Under the pieces are notes generated by a model that made no database searches, was not told the DNA's origin, and worked only from the letters and a program-made list of their open reading frames with translations. Both the position numbers and the translations under genes were made by a program. Shown here piece after piece: positions 1-7,937 of a DNA stretch of 10,625 bases; position 1 is the first letter of the stretch; each line of letters begins with the position of its first letter. Origin of the DNA: Actinomycetales bacterium (GTDB lineage Bacteria; Actinomycetota; Actinomycetes; Actinomycetales; Microbacteriaceae); NCBI GenBank assembly GCA_028868555.1, contig JAGWUG010000017.1, positions 1-10,625 on the forward strand, read 5' to 3'.

Positions 1-729
1 GTGAAGTCGGCCATGTACTACCCGGCCGTGCTGTTCCTGCTTGGCGTTACCTCGGTGATTGTTCTATCCACCGTTGTCTTGCCAAAGTTCAAGACCTTCT
101 TCACCAGCCTCGACACCGAGCTCCCACCTGCCACCTCTGCCCTCCTGGCGATTACCGGCTTCGTGGGCGAGTTCTGGTGGGCTCTGATCATCGGACTCGT
201 GGCAATCGTTGCCGGAGTTTGGGCCTGGCGAAACACCCCGAATGGCCGCCTGGCGATCGACCGCTTCACCCTACGCATTCCAATCTTTGGAAACCTGCTG
301 CAGCTGGTTGCCCTGGAGCGCTTCTGCCGCATCCTGGGAAGCCTCAACGACACCGGCGTTACCCTCACCGATTCGCTGAAACTGGCATCGGAGGTTTTGG
401 GAAACAAGGCCTACGAGAAGGCAGTCATGGGCACCCGCGACGGAGTGATCCAGGGCCGCGGTCTGGCCGACCCAATGCGCGACACAAAGATGTTCCCCGA
501 GGAATCGGTCCAGATCTTCCGCGTTGGCGAGCAGTCGGGTCTTCTCACTCAGCAGCTAAAGCACGCTGCCACCTACTACGCCGGTGAAGTTGACTACCGG
601 CTCAAGAACCTAACCGCACTGATCGAGCCAGTGGTGCTCCTGGTCATTGGTGGCGGTACCGGATTTGTTGCCGTGGCGCTGGTTTCAGCCATGTACGGCA
701 TTTACTCATCTCAGTCAATGGGGGGCTAG
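1..729 (+). CDS. pilC: Type IV pilus platform protein PilC/GspF, C-terminal part (5'-truncated by the window)
   Basis: Inner-membrane platform protein of type IV pili and type II secretion. In the family it sits in the cytoplasmic membrane and couples the assembly ATPase to pilin insertion. The 242 visible residues start in the membrane segment after the first T2SSF domain (hydrophobic residues about 5-28), followed by a hydrophobic stretch at about 57-75. The second T2SSF domain follows at about 96-222, with family-like features: an LERFCRILGSL helix, the GVTLTDSLKLA stretch, the FRVGEQSGLL motif at 173-182, and a C-terminal hydrophobic helix at about 208-232 after NLTALIEP. Full-length members are about 400 aa, so roughly 160 residues lie upstream. 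The GTG at position 1 is most likely an internal Val codon, not the start. The stop lies 6 nt before the next prepilin gene, so it is part of the pilus operon. The family call is firm. PilC rather than GspF is chosen because no secretion genes are visible. Confidence 0.93.
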   Translation: MKSAMYYPAVLFLLGVTSVIVLSTVVLPKFKTFFTSLDTELPPATSALLAITGFVGEFWWALIIGLVAIVAGVWAWRNTPNGRLAIDRFTLRIPIFGNLLQLVALERFCRILGSLNDTGVTLTDSLKLASEVLGNKAYEKAVMGTRDGVIQGRGLADPMRDTKMFPEESVQIFRVGEQSGLLTQQLKHAATYYAGEVDYRLKNLTALIEPVVLLVIGGGTGFVAVALVSAMYGIYSSQSMGG

Positions 730-735
730 GGAAAT

Positions 736-2271
736 ATGGAAAAGATAAGAAGCTGGTACAGCCAGCAAAACGAGCGGGGATCATCGCTGCTCGAGGTAAT
801 TGTTGCCGTGGTGATTCTGGGCGTGGTCGGTTCGACCCTGCTCGGCGGCCTCAATTCGGCCAACCTGGCGCAGAAGAAGACCGCTCAGGTTGCATTCGCC
901 GAGAACGCAATGCAGATGGGCAACGACTCGCTCGCGCTCTCGAGCTTTGTCGCCTGCGACAACACAAGCCAGAACCCATACGGCAACCTAAGCCTGCCCG
1001 CGAACGTGACCGTGATTTCGGTGGCCGTGGTGGACCCAACCACCAACGCGGTAACCCCCTGTTCCGCAATCACCACCGCTGCAGCCAAGAGCGCCGAGAC
1101 CATCCAGCAGATCAAGCTTCAGTACACCAACGCAATCACCGGAGTGAACCGCATTCGCTACGTTCAGAAGTATCTGCAGACCCTGACAACCAACCTGAGC
1201 ACCGACTGCAAGGCAGTGGGTTACCGCGTAAATGCCATCTCCCCATCGAGCCTGACGGTAATCGCCGGCGACTCGGGCAGCTACACCAACCCAATGAGCA
1301 CCACCTGCGATGGATTCGGAACCGACAATGTCTTTTCGGCATCTGCGGTTACTGGTGTGACCGCAGTGGTTGATGCCAAGAACTACTTGACCATCAACAC
1401 CTCAACCACCACCCCAACTGGAAACAGCGCGGTTCGCGTTGACGCCAAGGATGCCCTGACCGGCACCGCGGCCATCTACTCCTCGGCAAACCTGGTGGTG
1501 GCCCCAACCATGAGTCTGGCCAGCGGAAGTTCCTGCACCAGCAAGTACGTGGCCCTGATCGGATACGGAATGGTCAGCACCGGAAGCTGTGGCTCGGTTT
1601 CGTCCATCAAATTCACCCTCACCGGTGGAGTTCGCAACACAGCAGTGACAAGCTCGTGGCGAACCTCATCAACCTGGCAGAGCAATACGGCGAGCGCCGC
1701 ACTCCCATTCGACCTAACCGTTGCCAACAATGTGGGCACCCTGACCTACAACAGCTCAGTGGCGAGCGCCGCAACTTACACCCTGCCGCTGATTGCAACG
1801 GGTGGTGGCCTAAACAACCCAATGTCGGTTGGTTCGGTCAACCTCGTGGTTCGCGACAAGCTGACCTTCGGAACCTTCACTCCAACTTGTTCCTCGAACT
1901 ACTTGGCCAGCAGCAGCAACTCCAACTGCAAGTTCAGCCTTACTTCGCTTCCTGGCACCGGCTGGCCCGGAACTCTTTCAAACATGAACTTCGTCTCTGC
2001 AAACAGCGCTGCTTCGTTTGCAAGCGACAATGTCATTCCTCTGAGCTACAACTCTTCGGTGGATTGGCAGGCAGGCGCCAGCCAGGTGCAGTTCGGAAAC
2101 AAGTCAAGCTCAAGCGCAGGCCTCTGCTCGGCTTACCGAGGTTCTGGCACCACCTACAAGACCGGCTACACCGCCGGTAGCGCATCCGACAGCATCCAAC
2201 TTGGATACGTAACTGAAACCCTCAACGGTGTAACCCGCAACATTCCAATCATTGTGACGGTGAAGTGCTAA
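736..2271 (+). CDS. Large minor pilin, PilV/GspI-like N-terminus with a 470-aa beta-rich ectodomain
   Basis: Pilin-like subunit of the filament encoded by this operon. Residues 1-15 are a short polar leader ending in Gly15. Processing by prepilin peptidase would leave Ser16 at +1 and Glu20 at +5 (GSSLLEVIVAVVILGVV), followed by a hydrophobic helix to about residue 38. Usual minor pilins are about 120-200 aa, but this one has 511. The rest is rich in Ser, Thr, Asn, Gly and Ala and reads as beta-strands. I see probable modules at about 165-255, 256-375 and 376-511, each closing with a similar strand (ANLVV, VNLVV, IIVTV). Ten cysteines all lie outside the membrane helix, and the last residue is Cys. 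The start at 736 follows an AGGGA a few bases upstream that overlaps the pilC stop. The order (before a J-like and a K-like protein) and the N-terminus suggest the GspI/PilV role. The ectodomain family is not recognised; adhesion is an inference. Confidence 0.85.
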   Translation: MEKIRSWYSQQNERGSSLLEVIVAVVILGVVGSTLLGGLNSANLAQKKTAQVAFAENAMQMGNDSLALSSFVACDNTSQNPYGNLSLPANVTVISVAVVDPTTNAVTPCSAITTAAAKSAETIQQIKLQYTNAITGVNRIRYVQKYLQTLTTNLSTDCKAVGYRVNAISPSSLTVIAGDSGSYTNPMSTTCDGFGTDNVFSASAVTGVTAVVDAKNYLTINTSTTTPTGNSAVRVDAKDALTGTAAIYSSANLVVAPTMSLASGSSCTSKYVALIGYGMVSTGSCGSVSSIKFTLTGGVRNTAVTSSWRTSSTWQSNTASAALPFDLTVANNVGTLTYNSSVASAATYTLPLIATGGGLNNPMSVGSVNLVVRDKLTFGTFTPTCSSNYLASSSNSNCKFSLTSLPGTGWPGTLSNMNFVSANSAASFASDNVIPLSYNSSVDWQAGASQVQFGNKSSSSAGLCSAYRGSGTTYKTGYTAGSASDSIQLGYVTETLNGVTRNIPIIVTVKC

Positions 2272-3146
2272 TGACCAAGCTAAATCTCCGCTCAGATGCC
2301 GGTTTGACGCTGGTTGAGATCATCATTGCCACAGTCATCACCGCCCTCATCGGTGTGACTCTGGTGCGCATCACTTCCGACGTAGCCAACGGCTTGGGCT
2401 CGACCGTAGGCCACGTGGTTGCCACTAACCAGACCGTGAGCTTTGCTCGAACCCTGCGCAATGACATTGGCGGCGCCCAGGACATTTATCCGTTTGGTTC
2501 TAACCCTGCCCCGGCCGACTCGCAGACCTACCTCTGCAGCAGCTGGGATGGCGTGGCCACCGACTGGACCGACAGCACTGCCGTCAACTTCACCCGCCCG
2601 CTGTTCACCATTGCCTACCCATCGGTGAACTACGACCAGGCCTCGCTAACCGCACCAACCTACGCTCCCCCAACCCTGGGCTGGATAGGTTACGAGATCC
2701 GCAACTCCACCGATGCCGATGGCATGGTGACCTATGAGTTGTGGCGCGTGAACTGTGCCGACAATGCCGGAATCTCCAGCAATGTGGCGAGTGTCAGCCG
2801 CAAGCTGGTGGACATCGGTGATGTTTACAGTTTTGACGCCGCAGCAGTTGGAGCCGTTGACGGCAACAGCCCAAACGGTGACCCAGTGCTGTTCTGTCAG
2901 CCAACCACCAACCTGATCAACGGCGTCACCAACGACATTGGCAACCAGTGTGCTGTTGCCGGTGTGAACGCCAGCACCTCGGGTTCCAACGGAACCAACT
3001 TTTACTTCCAGTTCAAGATGCCATACATCGCGAACTCGGCAACCAACCAGCCGGGCGCAACCAACTCCCTGCAAACACTGTCGCCATCTGACGCCAAATA
3101 CAGCAACCAGTTGACGCAATCAATAACAAGAAAGATCGGTAACTAA
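2271..3146 (+). CDS. Minor pilin, PilW/GspJ-like
   Basis: Second pilin-like protein, 291 aa from the ATG chosen here. The leader is 11 residues ending in Gly11. Processing gives Leu12 at +1 and Glu16 at +5 (GLTLVEIIIATVITALIGVTLV), followed by a hydrophobic helix to about residue 33. The start-proximal sequence and the SFARTLRNDIGGAQD stretch after the helix resemble the PilW/GspJ type, in which an amphipathic helix leads into a beta domain. About 230 residues of ectodomain follow with four cysteines, enough for two disulfides. The ATG overlaps the previous stop codon by one base (TAATG), and GGTGAAG at 2259-2265 fits as a ribosome-binding site, so translation is probably coupled. A GTG two codons earlier (2265) lies inside that site and is not preferred. 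The pilin-like call is firm; the J/W assignment rests on order and N-terminal style and is moderate. Confidence 0.85.
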   Translation: MTKLNLRSDAGLTLVEIIIATVITALIGVTLVRITSDVANGLGSTVGHVVATNQTVSFARTLRNDIGGAQDIYPFGSNPAPADSQTYLCSSWDGVATDWTDSTAVNFTRPLFTIAYPSVNYDQASLTAPTYAPPTLGWIGYEIRNSTDADGMVTYELWRVNCADNAGISSNVASVSRKLVDIGDVYSFDAAAVGAVDGNSPNGDPVLFCQPTTNLINGVTNDIGNQCAVAGVNASTSGSNGTNFYFQFKMPYIANSATNQPGATNSLQTLSPSDAKYSNQLTQSITRKIGN

Positions 3147-3147
3147 C

Positions 3148-5157
3148 ATGAAGTCCCTGAAGAACACTGACTTCCTGAACGGAAAGTCAGATTCGGGTGC
3201 GGCCCTTGCGCTTGTGCTGCTCATGGTTATCTTTCTGAGTCTCTGGCTCAGTTCGGTATTCCTGGTGTCGGCATCAAGTAAAAAGGCAATCGACACCAAC
3301 ATCGCGCAGGCCCAGCTGAAAGACACCAACATCGATGCAGCGTTGCAGCAGGCTTTGGCGGTCATCAACGGCCAGAGCGTTGGCTCCACAGCACCTGGCT
3401 ACAACGGCAGCTGTGCCTCTACCAACATCAACTACACCGCGCCTGACGGCACCGTCATTCAGGTTCAGTGCACCCAGGCAGCGGACTCCGGCATTGCCGG
3501 CCCGATCGCCTCGTTCGTGCTGACCGGCACCAACTCAACCTGTGGCACCTCGTGTGTTACCGGTGTGGACGGCGGCTTGAACATTGTGTCGAGCACCACA
3601 GCCAACCAGTGTGCAGCCATCAGCAAGTTCAAGTTCACCGGTGGAATCTTCAACTCCTCCGGTTCGTTCCAGAACGTGAACGCCTGCACCACTCAGGTGG
3701 ATGCCGCTGCCGGCCAGAACCAGCCGATCATCACCACTCCATCCTCGGCTCTTCCAGGATTCCCTGCGAGCAATGGTCCACCTCAGCAGGTAACCAACGG
3801 CCCAACCCAGAACATTCAGCCAGCTCGCATCCAGCCAGGTGCTAACGCCAACTCCACCAGCCCTGACGTAAACCCAGCCGGATCGAACCCACCAGCCGGT
3901 TCTTCGAGCAACGTGGTTTTCGACTACCTGCGCAATGAGAGCCAGAAGCTGGACAAGGACGGCGACAAGACCGACAGCAAGAACCTCGCGCAGATCTCTT
4001 ACGCCGGAACCAAGGCAGACACCTGGGACGCCCGCGCCACTGGAGCCTGCTCGGTTAACACCTGGACTTCCGGTTCTGGTTTCGATGGCGCAGTGCACAT
4101 CTCGCCTTCGAGCACCAAGAGTGGCTTTGGCCGCATTACCGGCAGCATGCTTCAGCGCCTGAATGAGCTCAGCAACTGCTCGACCCCGGCCACGATCATC
4201 TTCGAGCCAGGAACTTACCGTTTCGTGGCAGACAAGACGAGCACCAACAAGTCCAGCTACGAGTGGCTGATTCAGAACGGCACCAAAGTCATCGGCGGTG
4301 TTCCTGTGAAGGACAGCAACGGCAACATCACTGACTGCCGTACCGACCTAGCCGGCGTTCAGCTGCAGTTCCAGGACACCTTCCTGACCTTCAGCCAGAG
4401 CAAGGTTTGGCTTTGCGATGACGTCACCGGATCCACCGAGGCTGCCCACCAGCACCCAGTGATCTCGGCTCCTCGCAACGGTGACGGTGCTGAGTTCAGC
4501 TGGTCGGCAAACGGCCGCAAGAACTCCAACGGCGACGACGCGTTCCTCAGCATTTTGGACTACAAGACCAAGACCACTGGACACGAGCACGAGTACAGCT
4601 ACCTGACCACCAGCGAGAAGAACTACCAGGACCGTGAGGGTTCCGACCATAACGGTAAGTTCGACACCTGGAAGTCATCGGAGCAGAGCACCTACGCAGC
4701 AAGCCTGCACAAGACCGTGGCTCAGCTCACCAGCGATGACAAGATCAAGGGTGAGGCCAAGCGTGGAATCCGCGATGAGCTGGACAAGAACGACCACTAC
4801 TACTCGGTCTCCAGCTGTCAGGTTTGTGTCACCATCCACGGCAGCATCCTGGCTCCGGCCGGATGGGCAAACACCTGGGAGAACTCCCTCGTGAAGTGGG
4901 TTGTGGACCTGGGCATGAACTTCCGTGCCATGACCGTTCACATCGACAACGAATCGAGCAACAACAGCCGCGCGATCCCTGGCCGTTACGCCGGTGACCG
5001 TCTGGTTCAGCTGCGCTTCCTTGCCAAGACCAAGGGCTCAAGCGTCTTCAAGCCAATCGGCATGGAGACCGTGCAGATCGCCGACTACCAGGGCCGTCAC
5101 CCTGGATCGGGCTACAAGGTCATTGCACGCCAGCTGAACACCAACACAAACGGCTAA
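3148..5157 (+). CDS. Giant PilX/GspK-like pilin lacking Glu5, probable tip subunit with a novel C-terminal domain
   Basis: 669 aa. The leader ends at Gly17 and the hydrophobic helix begins AALALVLLMVIFLSLWLSSV. Position +5 is Leu22 instead of Glu, as in GspK- and PilX-type proteins, which in type II secretion cap the pseudopilus tip with GspI and GspJ. Layout: helix 18-45; helical stretch to about 75; first ectodomain about 80-190 with six cysteines; a Pro/Asn/Gln-rich linker about 192-254; second domain about 255-669 with six more cysteines. The second domain contains an EF-hand-like acidic loop at 269-280 (DKDGDKTDS), a beta-helix-style strand (IIFEPGTYRF, about 350-359), two His-x-His sites (434/436 and 479/481), a CQVC pair (557/560) and a strand reading TIHGSILAPAG. 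I do not recognise a family for it. The gene starts one base after the previous stop, with only a weak ribosome-binding site, so coupling is likely. The pilin-like N-terminus is clear; tip location and adhesion are inferred. Confidence 0.8.
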   Translation: MKSLKNTDFLNGKSDSGAALALVLLMVIFLSLWLSSVFLVSASSKKAIDTNIAQAQLKDTNIDAALQQALAVINGQSVGSTAPGYNGSCASTNINYTAPDGTVIQVQCTQAADSGIAGPIASFVLTGTNSTCGTSCVTGVDGGLNIVSSTTANQCAAISKFKFTGGIFNSSGSFQNVNACTTQVDAAAGQNQPIITTPSSALPGFPASNGPPQQVTNGPTQNIQPARIQPGANANSTSPDVNPAGSNPPAGSSSNVVFDYLRNESQKLDKDGDKTDSKNLAQISYAGTKADTWDARATGACSVNTWTSGSGFDGAVHISPSSTKSGFGRITGSMLQRLNELSNCSTPATIIFEPGTYRFVADKTSTNKSSYEWLIQNGTKVIGGVPVKDSNGNITDCRTDLAGVQLQFQDTFLTFSQSKVWLCDDVTGSTEAAHQHPVISAPRNGDGAEFSWSANGRKNSNGDDAFLSILDYKTKTTGHEHEYSYLTTSEKNYQDREGSDHNGKFDTWKSSEQSTYAASLHKTVAQLTSDDKIKGEAKRGIRDELDKNDHYYSVSSCQVCVTIHGSILAPAGWANTWENSLVKWVVDLGMNFRAMTVHIDNESSNNSRAIPGRYAGDRLVQLRFLAKTKGSSVFKPIGMETVQIADYQGRHPGSGYKVIARQLNTNTNG

Positions 5158-5210
5158 CCACCACTAAACCAAATCGCTAACCACTCACCACCGCACGAAT
5201 GGGGCAAAGA
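5158..5210 (+). promoter_or_regulatory. C-rich, G-poor spacer before the last pilin gene
   Basis: This 53-nt spacer is the only gap of more than a few bases inside the pilin operon. From 5158 to 5198 it is close to half C with only three G. It has no obvious hairpin. The 9-mer GCTAACCAC begins at 5153 and again at 5176. Such composition could be an unstructured translation leader or a Rho-entry site. A promoter with clear -35 and -10 boxes was not seen. The GGGG at 5201-5204 is placed to act as the ribosome-binding site for the ATG at 5211. Confidence 0.35.
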
Positions 5211-5699
5211 ATGAACAACAAATGGCAAAAGCGCACCGATGCCGGTTTCTCGCTGATTGAGATTCTGATTTCGGTAGTCATCCTGGGAATTCTGAGCTCC
5301 ATCGTGACGGTGAGCGTGGGAGGTGCGCTGTACAGCGCCAACCTCAAGCAATGCAAGACCGATTTTGGTACCGCGACTCTGGCTGCAAACGCCTGGTTGA
5401 ACGACAACACCAATGCGGACGGAACCGTGGACTTCTCGTCCTGGAACACTTCCACCGCATCGGTGCGCTACAGCTATGACCTCTACTCTTCTGCCGATTC
5501 CTCCGGTAACAAGACGCTGGCGGGCCTTGGCTACATGCAGGCGTTTCCAGCGGTTGGAACCGGCAGCAAGTACCAGCTGGGTTGGGGCTGGAACACCAGC
5601 ACCAAGCAGGCTGTGATTGGGGTTTACAGCCCTAGCAGCACATCGGTGCGATATGGCAACAGCAACACTTCCGCCGACTGCGATTCAATACCGCGCTAG
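5211..5699 (+). CDS. Type IV pilin (compact, classical N-terminus)
   Basis: 162-aa pilin with a textbook prepilin N-terminus. A 12-residue basic leader ends in Gly12, then Phe13 stands at +1 (methylated in the family) and Glu17 at +5 (GFSLIEILISVVILGIL), with the hydrophobic helix reaching about residue 36. The ectodomain is about 115 residues, with only two cysteines: Cys48 just after the helix and Cys157 six residues from the end. They could form one disulfide closing the C-terminal loop. Its size fits a filament subunit or a small minor pilin of PilE/GspH kind. Whether it is the major pilin cannot be decided, because genes upstream of the window are unseen. I chose ATG 5211 over the in-frame ATG 5199, because 5211 has GGGG six bases upstream while 5199 has no ribosome-binding site and would lengthen the leader to 16. 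It is set off from the upstream pilins by a C-rich spacer, so it may be expressed at a different level. Confidence 0.88.
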   Translation: MNNKWQKRTDAGFSLIEILISVVILGILSSIVTVSVGGALYSANLKQCKTDFGTATLAANAWLNDNTNADGTVDFSSWNTSTASVRYSYDLYSSADSSGNKTLAGLGYMQAFPAVGTGSKYQLGWGWNTSTKQAVIGVYSPSSTSVRYGNSNTSADCDSIPR

Positions 5700-5834: not shown

Positions 5835-6398
5835 ATGCAAAACGGAAGTCGCCACCCGGTTAGTCTCTGGGTGGCGGCTTTCGCTTTAACGGCCGCTCTG
5901 CAGATCTTTCGAGGGGCGCTAGAAGACACAATCATCTTCGTCGCGGGTGGTCTACTCATACTTTTGAGCACCAATGTTTTAGCCAAAATCAACCTGCCGA
6001 GCGCAAAGTTGACCGCGGGTTCCAACCTCGACTGGGCGGGCATGATTTTGCTATTCGCCCTCGCCTTCACGCCACGTCACACGTTCTTTAACCTGGGTAT
6101 TTTTGTGCTGCTCCTGCCTCTGGTTTTGTTCATGGCATGGGGCGCTCATTCTGAGCCTGTTCGCCAGCTCACCAAACGTGATCGGGCTACAAGATTTGCT
6201 TGGAGCGCCTGGGCCATTGTGATGTGCCTGTGGGAGTTCTCGGCCAACATTCTCGGCCAGCTCTCCAAGGTGCCAGATGCCTTCCCCACCATCTCGGTTC
6301 TCGTCGACCCCATCTTGAAGTTGGAGCTTGGTCAGGCCGGCTTTGTGGTGGTCTGGCTGCTGGTTGGCTACTACCTGCTGAAGGCGGGCATCAAGTGA
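5835..6398 (+). CDS. Hypothetical multi-pass membrane protein
   Basis: 187 aa from the start chosen here, function not recognised. Hydrophobic segments suggest about six membrane helices: residues about 8-25, 31-47, 56-72, 77-95, 115-138 and 163-182, with short loops. The loop RQLTKRDRATR is basic and probably cytoplasmic. No catalytic motif, cysteine pair or transporter signature is visible. The reading frame is open back to 5727, but ATG 5835 is preferred: it has GAGGA at 5828-5832 just upstream, and the extra N-terminal residues would be polar and low in complexity. The start is nevertheless peculiar, because a 15-bp hairpin covers codons 3-17. The stop overlaps the GTG of the next small membrane-protein gene, suggesting the two work as a pair in the membrane. 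The coding call is firm; the exact start is moderate. Confidence 0.75.
   Translation: MQNGSRHPVSLWVAAFALTAALQIFRGALEDTIIFVAGGLLILLSTNVLAKINLPSAKLTAGSNLDWAGMILLFALAFTPRHTFFNLGIFVLLLPLVLFMAWGAHSEPVRQLTKRDRATRFAWSAWAIVMCLWEFSANILGQLSKVPDAFPTISVLVDPILKLELGQAGFVVVWLLVGYYLLKAGIK
5843..5883 (+). terminator. Long hairpin inside the first codons of the next gene; candidate terminator or attenuator
   Basis: Bases 5843-5857 pair with 5869-5883 (15 pairs including two G-U), enclosing an 11-nt loop. The GC-rich core is GCCACCC / GGGTGGC. The 3' arm runs into a modestly T-rich stretch (GGCTTTCGCTTT). It is the first strong hairpin after the last pilin stop at 5699, so it may end the pilus transcript. It lies within codons 3-17 of the membrane-protein gene that starts at 5835, so it could instead reduce translation or act as an attenuator. 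There is no real U-run, which weakens the terminator reading. Confidence 0.5.
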
Positions 6399-6610
6399 GC
6401 ACACACGCTATAACAGTTGGTGGCTACCTCGTGCTGCTGGCCCTTGGCTTCGTGCTTTGGTTTACCACCCGCACCGATGCACACCCGCGCCTCACCAGCC
6501 TCAGCAAAATGTTTGAGCACCTGCTGCGCTATCGCGGCACCCGCCTCGGCCTAATCATCTTCTGGTGGTGGCTGGGATGGCACTTCCTGGTGAACGTGGT
6601 TCAGTACTAA
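6395..6610 (+). CDS. Small membrane protein, DUF6186-like
   Basis: 71 aa from the GTG at 6395, which overlaps the previous stop (GTGA). AAGGCGGG just upstream can serve as the ribosome-binding site. The N-terminal helix (about residues 5-25, ITVGGYLVLLALGFVLWF) is followed by a short basic amphipathic middle with a LTSLSKMFEHLLRYRGTR stretch and a Trp-rich second helix (IIFWWWLGWHFLV). This pattern matches small actinobacterial proteins annotated as DUF6186 as I remember them; I could not search to confirm. The function is unknown. The stop-start overlap with the upstream six-helix protein suggests translational coupling and perhaps a joint membrane complex. The frame is open upstream to 6200, but that part overlaps the neighbour's reading frame and is a shadow. 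Confidence 0.75.
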   Translation: MSTHAITVGGYLVLLALGFVLWFTTRTDAHPRLTSLSKMFEHLLRYRGTRLGLIIFWWWLGWHFLVNVVQY

Positions 6611-6621
6611 GTTCCATGAAG

Positions 6622-6627
6622 TAGTTT
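6622..6627 (+). promoter_or_regulatory. Candidate -10 box for a leaderless VOC-gene transcript
   Basis: TAGTTT matches the TANNNT form of the actinobacterial -10 element and ends six bases before the ATG at 6634. That spacing would place the transcription start at or next to the A of the ATG. The gene has no ribosome-binding site upstream, which fits a leaderless mRNA, a common arrangement in this phylum. The match is short, so it may be chance. Confidence 0.35.
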
Positions 6628-6633
6628 GGTGTC

Positions 6634-6999
6634 ATGAAATTTCGCCAGATTGGCCTGAAGGCCACAGACATTGACCGCGCTGCCGCCTTTTACACCGATG
6701 TCCTGGGCATGCAGCCGACCGCCATTTTCAACCCACCTGGATTCGCCTTCTTCAATCTGGAGGGTGTTCGACTGTTCCTTGACGTCAACGCGCCGGCCGG
6801 CCTGGTTTATCTCGAGGTAGATGACGTGCGCACCAAGGTTGAGGAACTGCGCGCCAAGGGCATTGAGATCTCGAGTGAACCGCACGTGGTATTTCCGGAT
6901 GAGGGCGGGCTCTTTGATGCTCCGGGTAACGAATGGCTGGCGTTCTTTGTTGACTCCGAGGGCAACAACGTGGGCCTGATGAGCCGCGAGGTTCTCTAA
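6634..6999 (+). CDS. VOC-superfamily (glyoxalase/bleomycin-resistance-like) protein
   Basis: 121-aa cytosolic protein with the paired beta-alpha-beta-beta-beta modules of the vicinal oxygen chelate fold. The first module is at about 1-53 (FRQIGLKATDIDRAAAFYTDVLGM, then FAFFNLEGVRLFLDV). The second is at about 62-120 (VYLEVDDVRTKVEELRAKGIEI, a GGLFDAPGNEW turn, and AFFVDSEGNNVGLM). The length is normal for a one-polypeptide VOC protein, which usually dimerises. The usual metal positions look altered: Gln5 stands where many members have His, and Gly stands where the last-strand Glu of the DPxGNxxEL motif is expected. A classical glyoxalase I or fosfomycin-resistance activity is therefore doubtful, and the substrate cannot be named. 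No ribosome-binding site precedes the ATG; see the leaderless promoter candidate. The gene is convergent with the DsbA-like gene. Confidence 0.85.
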   Translation: MKFRQIGLKATDIDRAAAFYTDVLGMQPTAIFNPPGFAFFNLEGVRLFLDVNAPAGLVYLEVDDVRTKVEELRAKGIEISSEPHVVFPDEGGLFDAPGNEWLAFFVDSEGNNVGLMSREVL

Positions 7000-7021: not shown

Positions 7022-7055
7022 GAAGTGGCCGGCCCCATACGGGACCGGCCACTTT
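7022..7055. terminator. Bidirectional terminator between convergent genes
   Basis: AAGTGGCCGG at 7023-7032 pairs with CCGGCCACTT at 7045-7054. After a single C/A mismatch, three more C-G pairs close a four-base ATAC loop. Flanking A (5') and T (3') bases suit termination from either side. It lies between the VOC stop (6999) and the DsbA-like stop (7070 on the minus strand), so it can serve both. Confidence 0.85.
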
Positions 7056-7067
7056 CAACTTAAGGCT

Positions 7068-7937
7068 TTAGCCCTTGATGGCCTGCTGGAACCAGGCTGC
7101 AAAGCGGGCTGGGCTGGTGAGCTCGGCCTCGGTGGTCCAGGCGTACTGCTTGCCGTTGACCACGATGGTTGGAGTACCGGTAACACCGAAGGTTGCACCC
7201 TTGACCTTGTACTTGGCGCCAAGCACGGTGTCGGTGGTGTTCTTTACCCAGTTGCCGAAGGTCTTGTTGTTGATGCAGTCGGCAATCTTGGCTGCGTTCT
7301 GAACGCCTGCCTCGGTGGTGCGCTTGATCAACTCAGGGTTCTCCGGTCCAGGAGTGCCTTCTGCCGGCTGGTGCTGGTAGAGCAGTGCCGAGAAGTCGAA
7401 GAAGTTGTTCGGGCTGTAGTTTGCAACACAAACTGCCGCGTTTGCAGCACGGCTGGAATAGGTGTTTGGCGAACCGCGACCGTCCAGGAACGAGATTGGG
7501 TGGATTTCAACGGTTGCTACACCGCTCTTTACCCACTGTCGCAGCTGGGCAGTGTTGCCCTGCTCGAACATCTCACAGATTGGGCACTGGTAGTCCACGT
7601 AGATCTGGATGTTTGGAGTGGCTGCCGAACCTGCGGTGGCTGCAGGTGCTGGAGTCTGGTGCTCGGTGAATGCCTCCAGGTTGGTACCGATTTTGATTCC
7701 ACTGTCGTAGATCATGTTGGCCGGGCCGGTGGCATCGGTGGTGGACTGCTTGGCAGCACCCACGATGGCGGTGACGATAAGGGCCACAACAATCAGGATG
7801 GCGGCGGCGATGGAGACCTTGATACCGAGGCTCTTGTTGCGCTCCTTGCGTGCGCTGGCCTCGCGGAGTGCGCGGGCCTTTTCGCGGGTGGCCTCGCGCT
7901 GCTCAGAACGAGTCTGGCGGGATGGATTGGTAGCCAT
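7068..7937 (-). CDS. Membrane-anchored DsbA-like thiol-disulfide oxidoreductase
   Basis: 289 aa. A highly charged cytoplasmic N-terminus (residues about 6-36, Arg/Lys/Glu-rich and probably helical) is followed by one membrane segment at about 41-62. A linker with a Pro/Ala/Thr patch (95-108) leads to an extracytoplasmic thioredoxin fold of the Thioredoxin_4/DsbA type. The active site is CPIC (118-121) after the YVDYQ strand, and the cis-proline loop is TGTPT (Pro256). Two more cysteines (170 and 221) sit in the helical insert and could form the second, structural disulfide described for actinobacterial DsbA-type proteins. The expected role is making or reshuffling disulfides in exported proteins. 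The start is the ATG at 7937 with GAGGA (7943-7947 on the plus strand) five bases upstream; the in-frame GTG at 7949 is part of that site. The neighbouring pilin operon encodes 28 ectodomain cysteines, so the pilins are possible substrates, but this is only inference. Confidence 0.9.
   Translation of the reverse strand: MATNPSRQTRSEQREATREKARALREASARKERNKSLGIKVSIAAAILIVVALIVTAIVGAAKQSTTDATGPANMIYDSGIKIGTNLEAFTEHQTPAPAATAGSAATPNIQIYVDYQCPICEMFEQGNTAQLRQWVKSGVATVEIHPISFLDGRGSPNTYSSRAANAAVCVANYSPNNFFDFSALLYQHQPAEGTPGPENPELIKRTTEAGVQNAAKIADCINNKTFGNWVKNTTDTVLGAKYKVKGATFGVTGTPTIVVNGKQYAWTTEAELTSPARFAAWFQQAIKG

Follow-up and report, generated by a model that had tools for sequence, protein, structure and literature searches.

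The described H-I-J-K sets of minor pilins are encoded in operons and capped by a K subunit that lacks the glutamate at position +5 (Glu5), according to the available text of PMC10790768 and PMC10191384. ComZ of Thermus is a DNA-binding tip pilin (PMC6561018). Modular pilins occur widely, with over 1,200 proteins in 264 architectures (accessible part of PMC8179133), and modular tip pilins have already been described there and in the corresponding part of PMC9934059. In Actinobacteria, the type 4 pili that have been studied are of the Tad type, as far as the accessible sections of PMC6916266 show. Here we analyse four consecutive prepilin-type genes (P1 to P4) that follow pilC in a 10,625-nucleotide stretch (the window) from an Actinomycetales bacterium of the family Microbacteriaceae (assembly GCA_028868555.1, contig JAGWUG010000017.1). 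The window is contig G000:C226 from base 1, and the genome bin, G000, measures 1.32 Mb in 322 contigs and is 81% complete. We consider it likely that the four genes are a tip cassette, encoding the minor pilins of a minimal type 4a-like pilus in a monoderm actinobacterium, with P1 and P3 as binding modules at the tip.

Such a pilus would resemble the PilA/PilB/PilC tip of Streptococcus sanguinis, a monoderm type 4 pilus with two large modular tip pilins (available parts of PMC9934059 and PMC8179133). In S. sanguinis, by these same sources, vWA and lectin domains are grafted on PilB and PilC, whereas here the I-like and K-like pilins are enlarged and carry no known domain by sequence. The Com pilus (ComGA-ComGG and ComC) shares eight core components, four minor pilins, the I-J-K order and a K subunit without Glu5. 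As described in the accessible text of PMC10790768, its minor pilins have no giant ectodomains, unlike those of the window, and ComGD precedes ComGE, whereas P4 comes after K. Other Microbacteriaceae have pilB-pilT-pilC-pilA-I-J-K-pilD-pilM-N-O loci with the same I-J-K genes beside pilC, a large K in all clear cases and a large I in 6 of 19. These ordinary loci differ in their PilC (~30-36% identical) and in the presence of PilT and PilM/N/O (as checked in the loci of G195, another genome of the genus).

The genes discussed here all lie on the forward strand. The contig start cuts pilC (platform protein, 1..729), leaving the C-terminal 242 codons (T2SSF, E 1.9e-21), and this fragment is 78% identical to residues 181-422 of the complete G195 PilC. 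P1 (736..2271, 511 aa) is an I-like prepilin with a large C-terminal beta-rich extension, P2 (2271..3146, 291 aa) a J-like prepilin between I and K, P3 (3148..5157, 669 aa) a K-like prepilin, and P4 (5211..5699, 162 aa; alternative ORF start at 5199) a small G/H-like prepilin with sub-cutoff GspH/GspG matches. P2 is read from the ATG at 2271 (the GTG at 2265 would give 293 aa). P1 and P2 overlap by one base and P3 starts one base past the end of P2, the run being near-gapless through P3. These open reading frames (ORFs) verified the claim of an earlier sequence-only reading that four prepilin-type genes follow pilC, pilC itself being a fragment.

We observed that each of the four proteins has a short charged leader, a glycine at -1 and a hydrophobic helix, with mature lengths of 496, 280, 652 and 150 residues. 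At +5 relative to this glycine, P1, P2 and P4 carry glutamate and P3 carries leucine. The leucine was found in all 14 aligned P3 rows, and the glutamate in 13 of 14 P1 rows, the odd row being a truncated protein. The Pfam N_methyl model matched P1 (7.1e-5, above cut-off), P4 (1.3e-7) and P2 (0.0037, under the curated cut-off); no Pfam family matched P3. Since P1, P2 and P3 have 13, 9 and 13 database relatives, they are real genes and not chance ORFs. The P3 relatives align with it over 99-100% of the length and are 34-93% identical, and one P1 relative (P0016) carries the name PilV in its source annotation. Three J/K pairs among the relatives (P0004/P0032, P0005/P0029 and P0007/P0035) lie on equal-sized contigs, which suggests, without proving it, that they are adjacent in their genomes.

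Two features of an HIJK tip complex were found here: adjacent genes with class III signal peptides, in I-J-K order, with K alone lacking Glu5. This order beside pilC recurs in G195, in other Microbacteriaceae and in other actinobacterial families. The sequence-only reading had proposed an I-J-K-like order with Glu5 missing only in the third gene, and had named conservation of the order in relatives beforehand as a test; the +5 residues and the recurrence bear it out. Gene order and Glu5 support the assignment of P1-P2-P3 as an I-J-K-like set, the curated profiles being of little help. A search against GspI/J/K and PilV/W/X profiles, also foreseen in that reading, gave P1 two I-type families as its best NCBIfam matches (ComGE 0.0039, XpsI 0.0064), both far under cut-off, and gave P3 no match to a named K profile. 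P2 matched a generic N-terminal NCBIfam model only, and nothing J-specific. A K relative at locus L093, in another actinobacterial family, gave PilX_N at 0.0018, below cut-off.

In G195 the run comprises eight genes: pilA, pilD, pilB, pilC, P1 (~539 aa), P2 (279-281 aa), P3 (693 aa) and P4 (141 aa). Pfam matches (T2SSE 3.6e-107, T2SSF 1e-46, peptidase A24 and N_methyl) identified PilB, PilC, PilD and a major pilin, the last of full size. In 42 kb around this operon, tblastn with G195's own two sets of PilT, PilM, PilN and PilO, which are encoded at two other loci, gave no match except PilT to PilB, though very divergent copies could escape. The set therefore counts eight genes, the number given for a minimal Com pilus. 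In a third genome of the genus, G190, pilB-pilC-P1 is followed by the contig end. G195 (1.6 Mb) has three type-4a-like pilus loci in all (L078, L079 and L010), each with its own I-J-K, and two further T2SSE ATPases. Two further T2SSE-type ATPases are encoded in G000; they resemble loner ATPases of the genus more than PilT or PilB, and we infer that they are Tad-type.

The PilC sequence places this pilus apart from its neighbours. The G195 PilC query matched 185 of 398 family genomes at E 1e-20; the window protein was 78% identical and the next best in the family 36% (E 1.4e-65). In the phylum sample the scores were bimodal: 17 genomes besides G000, all placed only as the same phylum, matched at 2.8e-77 or better (37-44% identity), followed by a gap down to 9.8e-65 (110 of 396 genomes matched at 1e-55). 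By these scores the window pilus belongs to the higher group, a lineage separate from the ordinary Microbacteriaceae loci.

We further searched 392 genomes of the phylum with a profile (A1) made from P3 and its 13 relatives. Three matched, namely the window, G545 (5.4e-7, positions 303-413) and G642 (3.3e-5, 345-422), and the latter two matches were K-like ORFs of 490 and 472 aa adjoining window-type pilC. Profile comparison extended the likeness to K pilins of other actinobacterial families: A1 scored 97.5% over P3 residues 326-425 against four K pilins (G545, G642, L093 and L095) and 94% over residues 7-174 against those of L093, L095 and L104. Each hhalign E-value here applies to one comparison only, and the first of these K profiles includes two rows, of four, that were picked because the A1 search had found them. 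Aligned with the four K pilins, P3 (eight rows in total) showed 24 invariant columns, including C89, C108, C397, C423 and a G-x-x-x-A-P motif near P3 residue 565. A scan of genome contigs with A1 found a single locus (CANBWO010000007.1). P3 is present in two of the 67 genus genomes, the G190 contig ending before the P3 slot.

The AlphaFold2 (AF2) model of P3, although of low confidence, predicts a beta-solenoid inside the pilin domain (residues 121-600, 3508..4947), a span that also holds the profile match over residues 326-425, with a more confident core at residues 313-470 (4084..4557). The C-terminal strands (residues 611-669, 4978..5154) may be the final strands of the pilin sheet, as the secondary structure of the model and a conserved C-terminal alignment block suggest. 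The nearest structure in a second look with VIA-align was FfIBP (4NU2). In these respects P3 as modelled resembles ComZ of Thermus thermophilus, whose GspK-like pilin domain is interrupted by a large beta-solenoid, itself nearest to FfIBP 4NU2, and which has a proposed tip position and neighbouring pilin genes (PMC6561018). ComZ differs in coming from a diderm, and the likeness is one of predicted fold. The ComZ structure was not among the rows of our structure comparison, and its absence there is uninformative. Pfam matches up to E 1 in the 14 P3 rows included no ice-binding family (DUF3494 type); P3 as an ice-binding protein would rest on structural resemblance only, and we give it little weight. 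The authors of the ComZ study reported no conserved ice-binding positions in ComZ (PMC6561018). A PDB sequence search with P3 gave two matches (E 0.02-0.027) to an autophagy protein, which were taken as chance, and the A1 profile gave none. P3 residues 471-556 (window 4558-4815) form a charged insert (13 K+R, 16 D+E) with an acidic D-x-x-x-S-D-x-x-G stretch that, judged by eye, might bind calcium.

In P1 the pilin part would end near residue 150, and ~360 residues of predicted strands lie beyond it (extension at ~residues 150-511, 1183..2268, in a low-confidence AF2 model). No extra domain reached the Pfam cut-off in the 14 P1 rows, and a PDB sequence search with the P1 profile found no match. 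Repeated Ig-like domains in P1 did not emerge from a segment self-comparison, where strong matches came only from overlapping cuts (best non-trivial match 3.5%). No extra module was recognized by Pfam or NCBIfam in P1 or P3, whether in the window proteins or in the rows of their relatives. The size and predicted strands of both are as expected of modular pilins, with models of low confidence. Among the three tip pilins P2 is the best conserved between lineages after pilC (~35% to G195). P4 is similar to the G195 P4 (37%) and to the PilA encoded after K in L093, L095, L098, L099 and L101; from this likeness, it could serve as an H-like linker or as a further major pilin.

The large ectodomains on the first and third genes, claimed by the sequence-only reading, are real; its view that such sizes are exceptional in this type of organism did not hold. 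We fetched 20 pilC neighbourhoods from the family, 19 of them informative (the L041 contig ends too early). The mature first tip pilin measured 416-447 residues in six of these (L044, L055-L059) and ~120-210 in 13. Large K pilins with varied modules are usual in Microbacteriaceae, since a clear K-like ORF of 522-626 aa stood next to the J-like gene in 8 of the 19 (L044, L050, L051, L052, L054, L057, L058 and L060) and the modules vary. Further K lengths were 594 and 584 aa (the two other G195 loci), 590 aa (G092) and 582 aa (G027). Among 14 loci of other families, K was clear in L093, L095 and L104 by script and in L101 by hand. Domains were scanned in ten K-like proteins (seven from family loci and three from other families), and three gave one above cut-off, L060 a ricin-B lectin and both L078 and L080 bactofilin-like repeats. 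The L060 protein (L060:10152-11774, ricin-B lectin at 2.6e-14) is a candidate sugar-binding pilus tip in another genus of Microbacteriaceae. Locus L094, from another actinobacterial family, encodes a 1659-aa prepilin-like ORF two genes past window-type pilC (minus strand, 10422-15401 in reversed coordinates). As to the suggestion that the modular combination is undescribed, modular tip pilins are already published (in the available parts of the papers cited above), and among open-licence PMC papers we found none on such a cassette in Microbacteriaceae. The cassette is a rare version of a known arrangement, and the K-like P3 and the pilus lineage are more interesting than the giant size.

Several results weigh against the tip-cassette reading. 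None of P1-P3 matched a named I, J or K profile of Pfam or NCBIfam at cut-off. Two profiles built from the K pilins of ordinary Microbacteriaceae loci did not match P3 (0.5% and 13%; slices likewise), and one genome of the family sample (G096) matched P3 only weakly (6.5e-4, residues 18-125). A crude ORF scan found no clean K in 11 of the 19 family loci (none in nine, doubtful starts in L047 and L053), and several of the 14 other-family loci hold different large prepilin-like ORFs. The P3 model has a mean pLDDT of 51.9, with 376 of 669 residues below 50, and Foldseek searches of PDB and of viral models with P3 returned no match that reached E 0.001; the P1 model cannot be used (mean pLDDT 44.4, all residues below 70). 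Window-type PilC (E below 1e-100) is rare, in 3 of 67 genus genomes (G000, G190 and G195). The pilA, pilB and pilD of G000 lie off the window contig and were not found.

With P1-P4 as a tip cassette, the following mechanism can be proposed. PilD would cut each leader after the -1 glycine, as the motif indicates. By analogy with the described HIJK systems, P3 (K), P1 (I) and P2 (J) would cap the filament and initiate its assembly on the PilB/PilC machine, with P3 outermost because it lacks Glu5, and P4 (G/H-like) and then the major pilin would polymerise under this cap. P3, with a ComZ-like beta-solenoid set in its pilin domain, and P1, with its long beta-rich C-terminal extension, would both be displayed at the tip for binding. 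The large outer parts of P1 and P3 probably grip something outside the cell. The most likely job would be attachment to particles, cells or polysaccharide, to which we give slightly less than an even chance.

The main alternative, possible though we rather doubt it, is a DNA-uptake (competence) pilus, the eight-gene set being a Com pilus and the ComZ-like K a DNA receptor feeding ComEC. The eight genes of G195 (PilA, PilD, PilB, PilC, I, J, K and P4), with no PilT/M/N/O match within 42 kb, agree with the eight core parts of Com pili (accessible text of PMC10790768); ComZ itself binds DNA (PMC6561018), and ComEC (PF03772) is present in G195 and G190. However, ComEC occurs in 55 of the 67 genus genomes and any PilC at 1e-20 in five, so ComEC does not track the pilus; nor was it found in G000 (81% complete). 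The charges also argue against DNA binding, since P2 is acidic (12 K+R, 21 D+E) and P3 roughly neutral (51 K+R, 55 D+E), in contrast to the electropositive DNA-binding ComGD-ComGF site of monoderms (available part of PMC12153270).

We think it improbable that the large parts serve to stiffen the pilus as stalks or to protect it as shields, with no ligand of their own. Such a role would fit the fact that the most variable regions are the P1 extension and the central part of P3 (identity to two distant lineages is 13-30% in P3 residues 131-312 and 70-73% in residues 1-60), but the K slot elsewhere presents recognizable modules, as in L060, L078 and L080. Least credible, and very unlikely in our judgement, is a type II secretion-like pseudopilus whose P1-P3 recognise exported proteins instead of outside ligands: that system likewise has the I-J-K order with K lacking Glu5, and GspF was the best NCBIfam model for the PilC fragment (182.8 vs 424 bits, far below cut-off), but no GspL/M/C-like genes were recognized beside the G195 operon (ORF list judged by eye; 10 genes scanned with Pfam), a monoderm lacks an outer membrane that would need crossing, and G195 encodes a full-size major pilin.

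To the right of the operon, the window holds two small ORFs of hydrophobic appearance as well as a glyoxalase-like gene (6634-6999; together 5835..6999, forward strand), which are kept next to the operon in G195, and then dsbA-malK-DUF4032. The DsbA-like thioredoxin (7068..7937, reverse strand; Thioredoxin_4, 2.1e-20) is the first gene of the conserved flank and is also present in relatives without the operon. The pilin set is rich in cysteine (10, 4, 12 and 2 residues in mature P1-P4), and the DsbA-like gene adjoins the operon, but it stands there in the operon-free relatives too. Between the convergent glyoxalase-like and DsbA-like genes, a GC-rich inverted repeat (7024-7051) looks by eye like a terminator.

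The window is the right-hand part of the arrangement in G195, where tRNA-Thr(TGT) and dsbA, ~14.2 kb apart, enclose x296, a reverse-transcriptase gene, the pil operon and the glyoxalase-like gene as one block. In all five comparators examined (G010, G173, G153, G092 and G205), this gap is 63-94 bp (seven were searched; G193 gave no match and G188 was not fetched). The tRNA-Thr(TGT) next to dsbA (L008:5439-5512; L119-L123) marks the site of the G195 pil block, which is near-empty in these five relatives. No integrase was identified, and the block sits 5' of the tRNA; we therefore regard it as a variable block at a fixed site, a mobile island being unproven. The reverse-transcriptase gene of G195 (L010:1606-3171; RVT_1, 8.5e-19) is directly upstream of pilA, and its motifs look retron-like.

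A wider picture can be offered only tentatively, and it may well be wrong. The K slot of one actinobacterial type 4 pilus lineage would hold a single ComZ-like receptor family, in which a beta-solenoid has grown within the capping pilin, and the minimal pilus would move as a block at tRNA-Thr among streamlined freshwater-type Microbacteriaceae, endowing the host in a single event with a new specificity for attachment or DNA capture, with P1 as a second, independently evolved binding arm. To our knowledge, a ComZ-type tip receptor has so far been known only from Thermus. If P3 is ComZ-like, this receptor type has monoderm relatives, and its tip function would be testable without an outer membrane. 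Work on actinobacterial pili has focused on Tad, whereas a type-4a-like PilC is found in 185 of 398 genomes of the family and 110 of 396 of the phylum at the cut-offs given above. Such a minimal pilus, with eight genes in all and two large tip modules, would also distinguish the parts required for assembly from those that the pilus is made to present.

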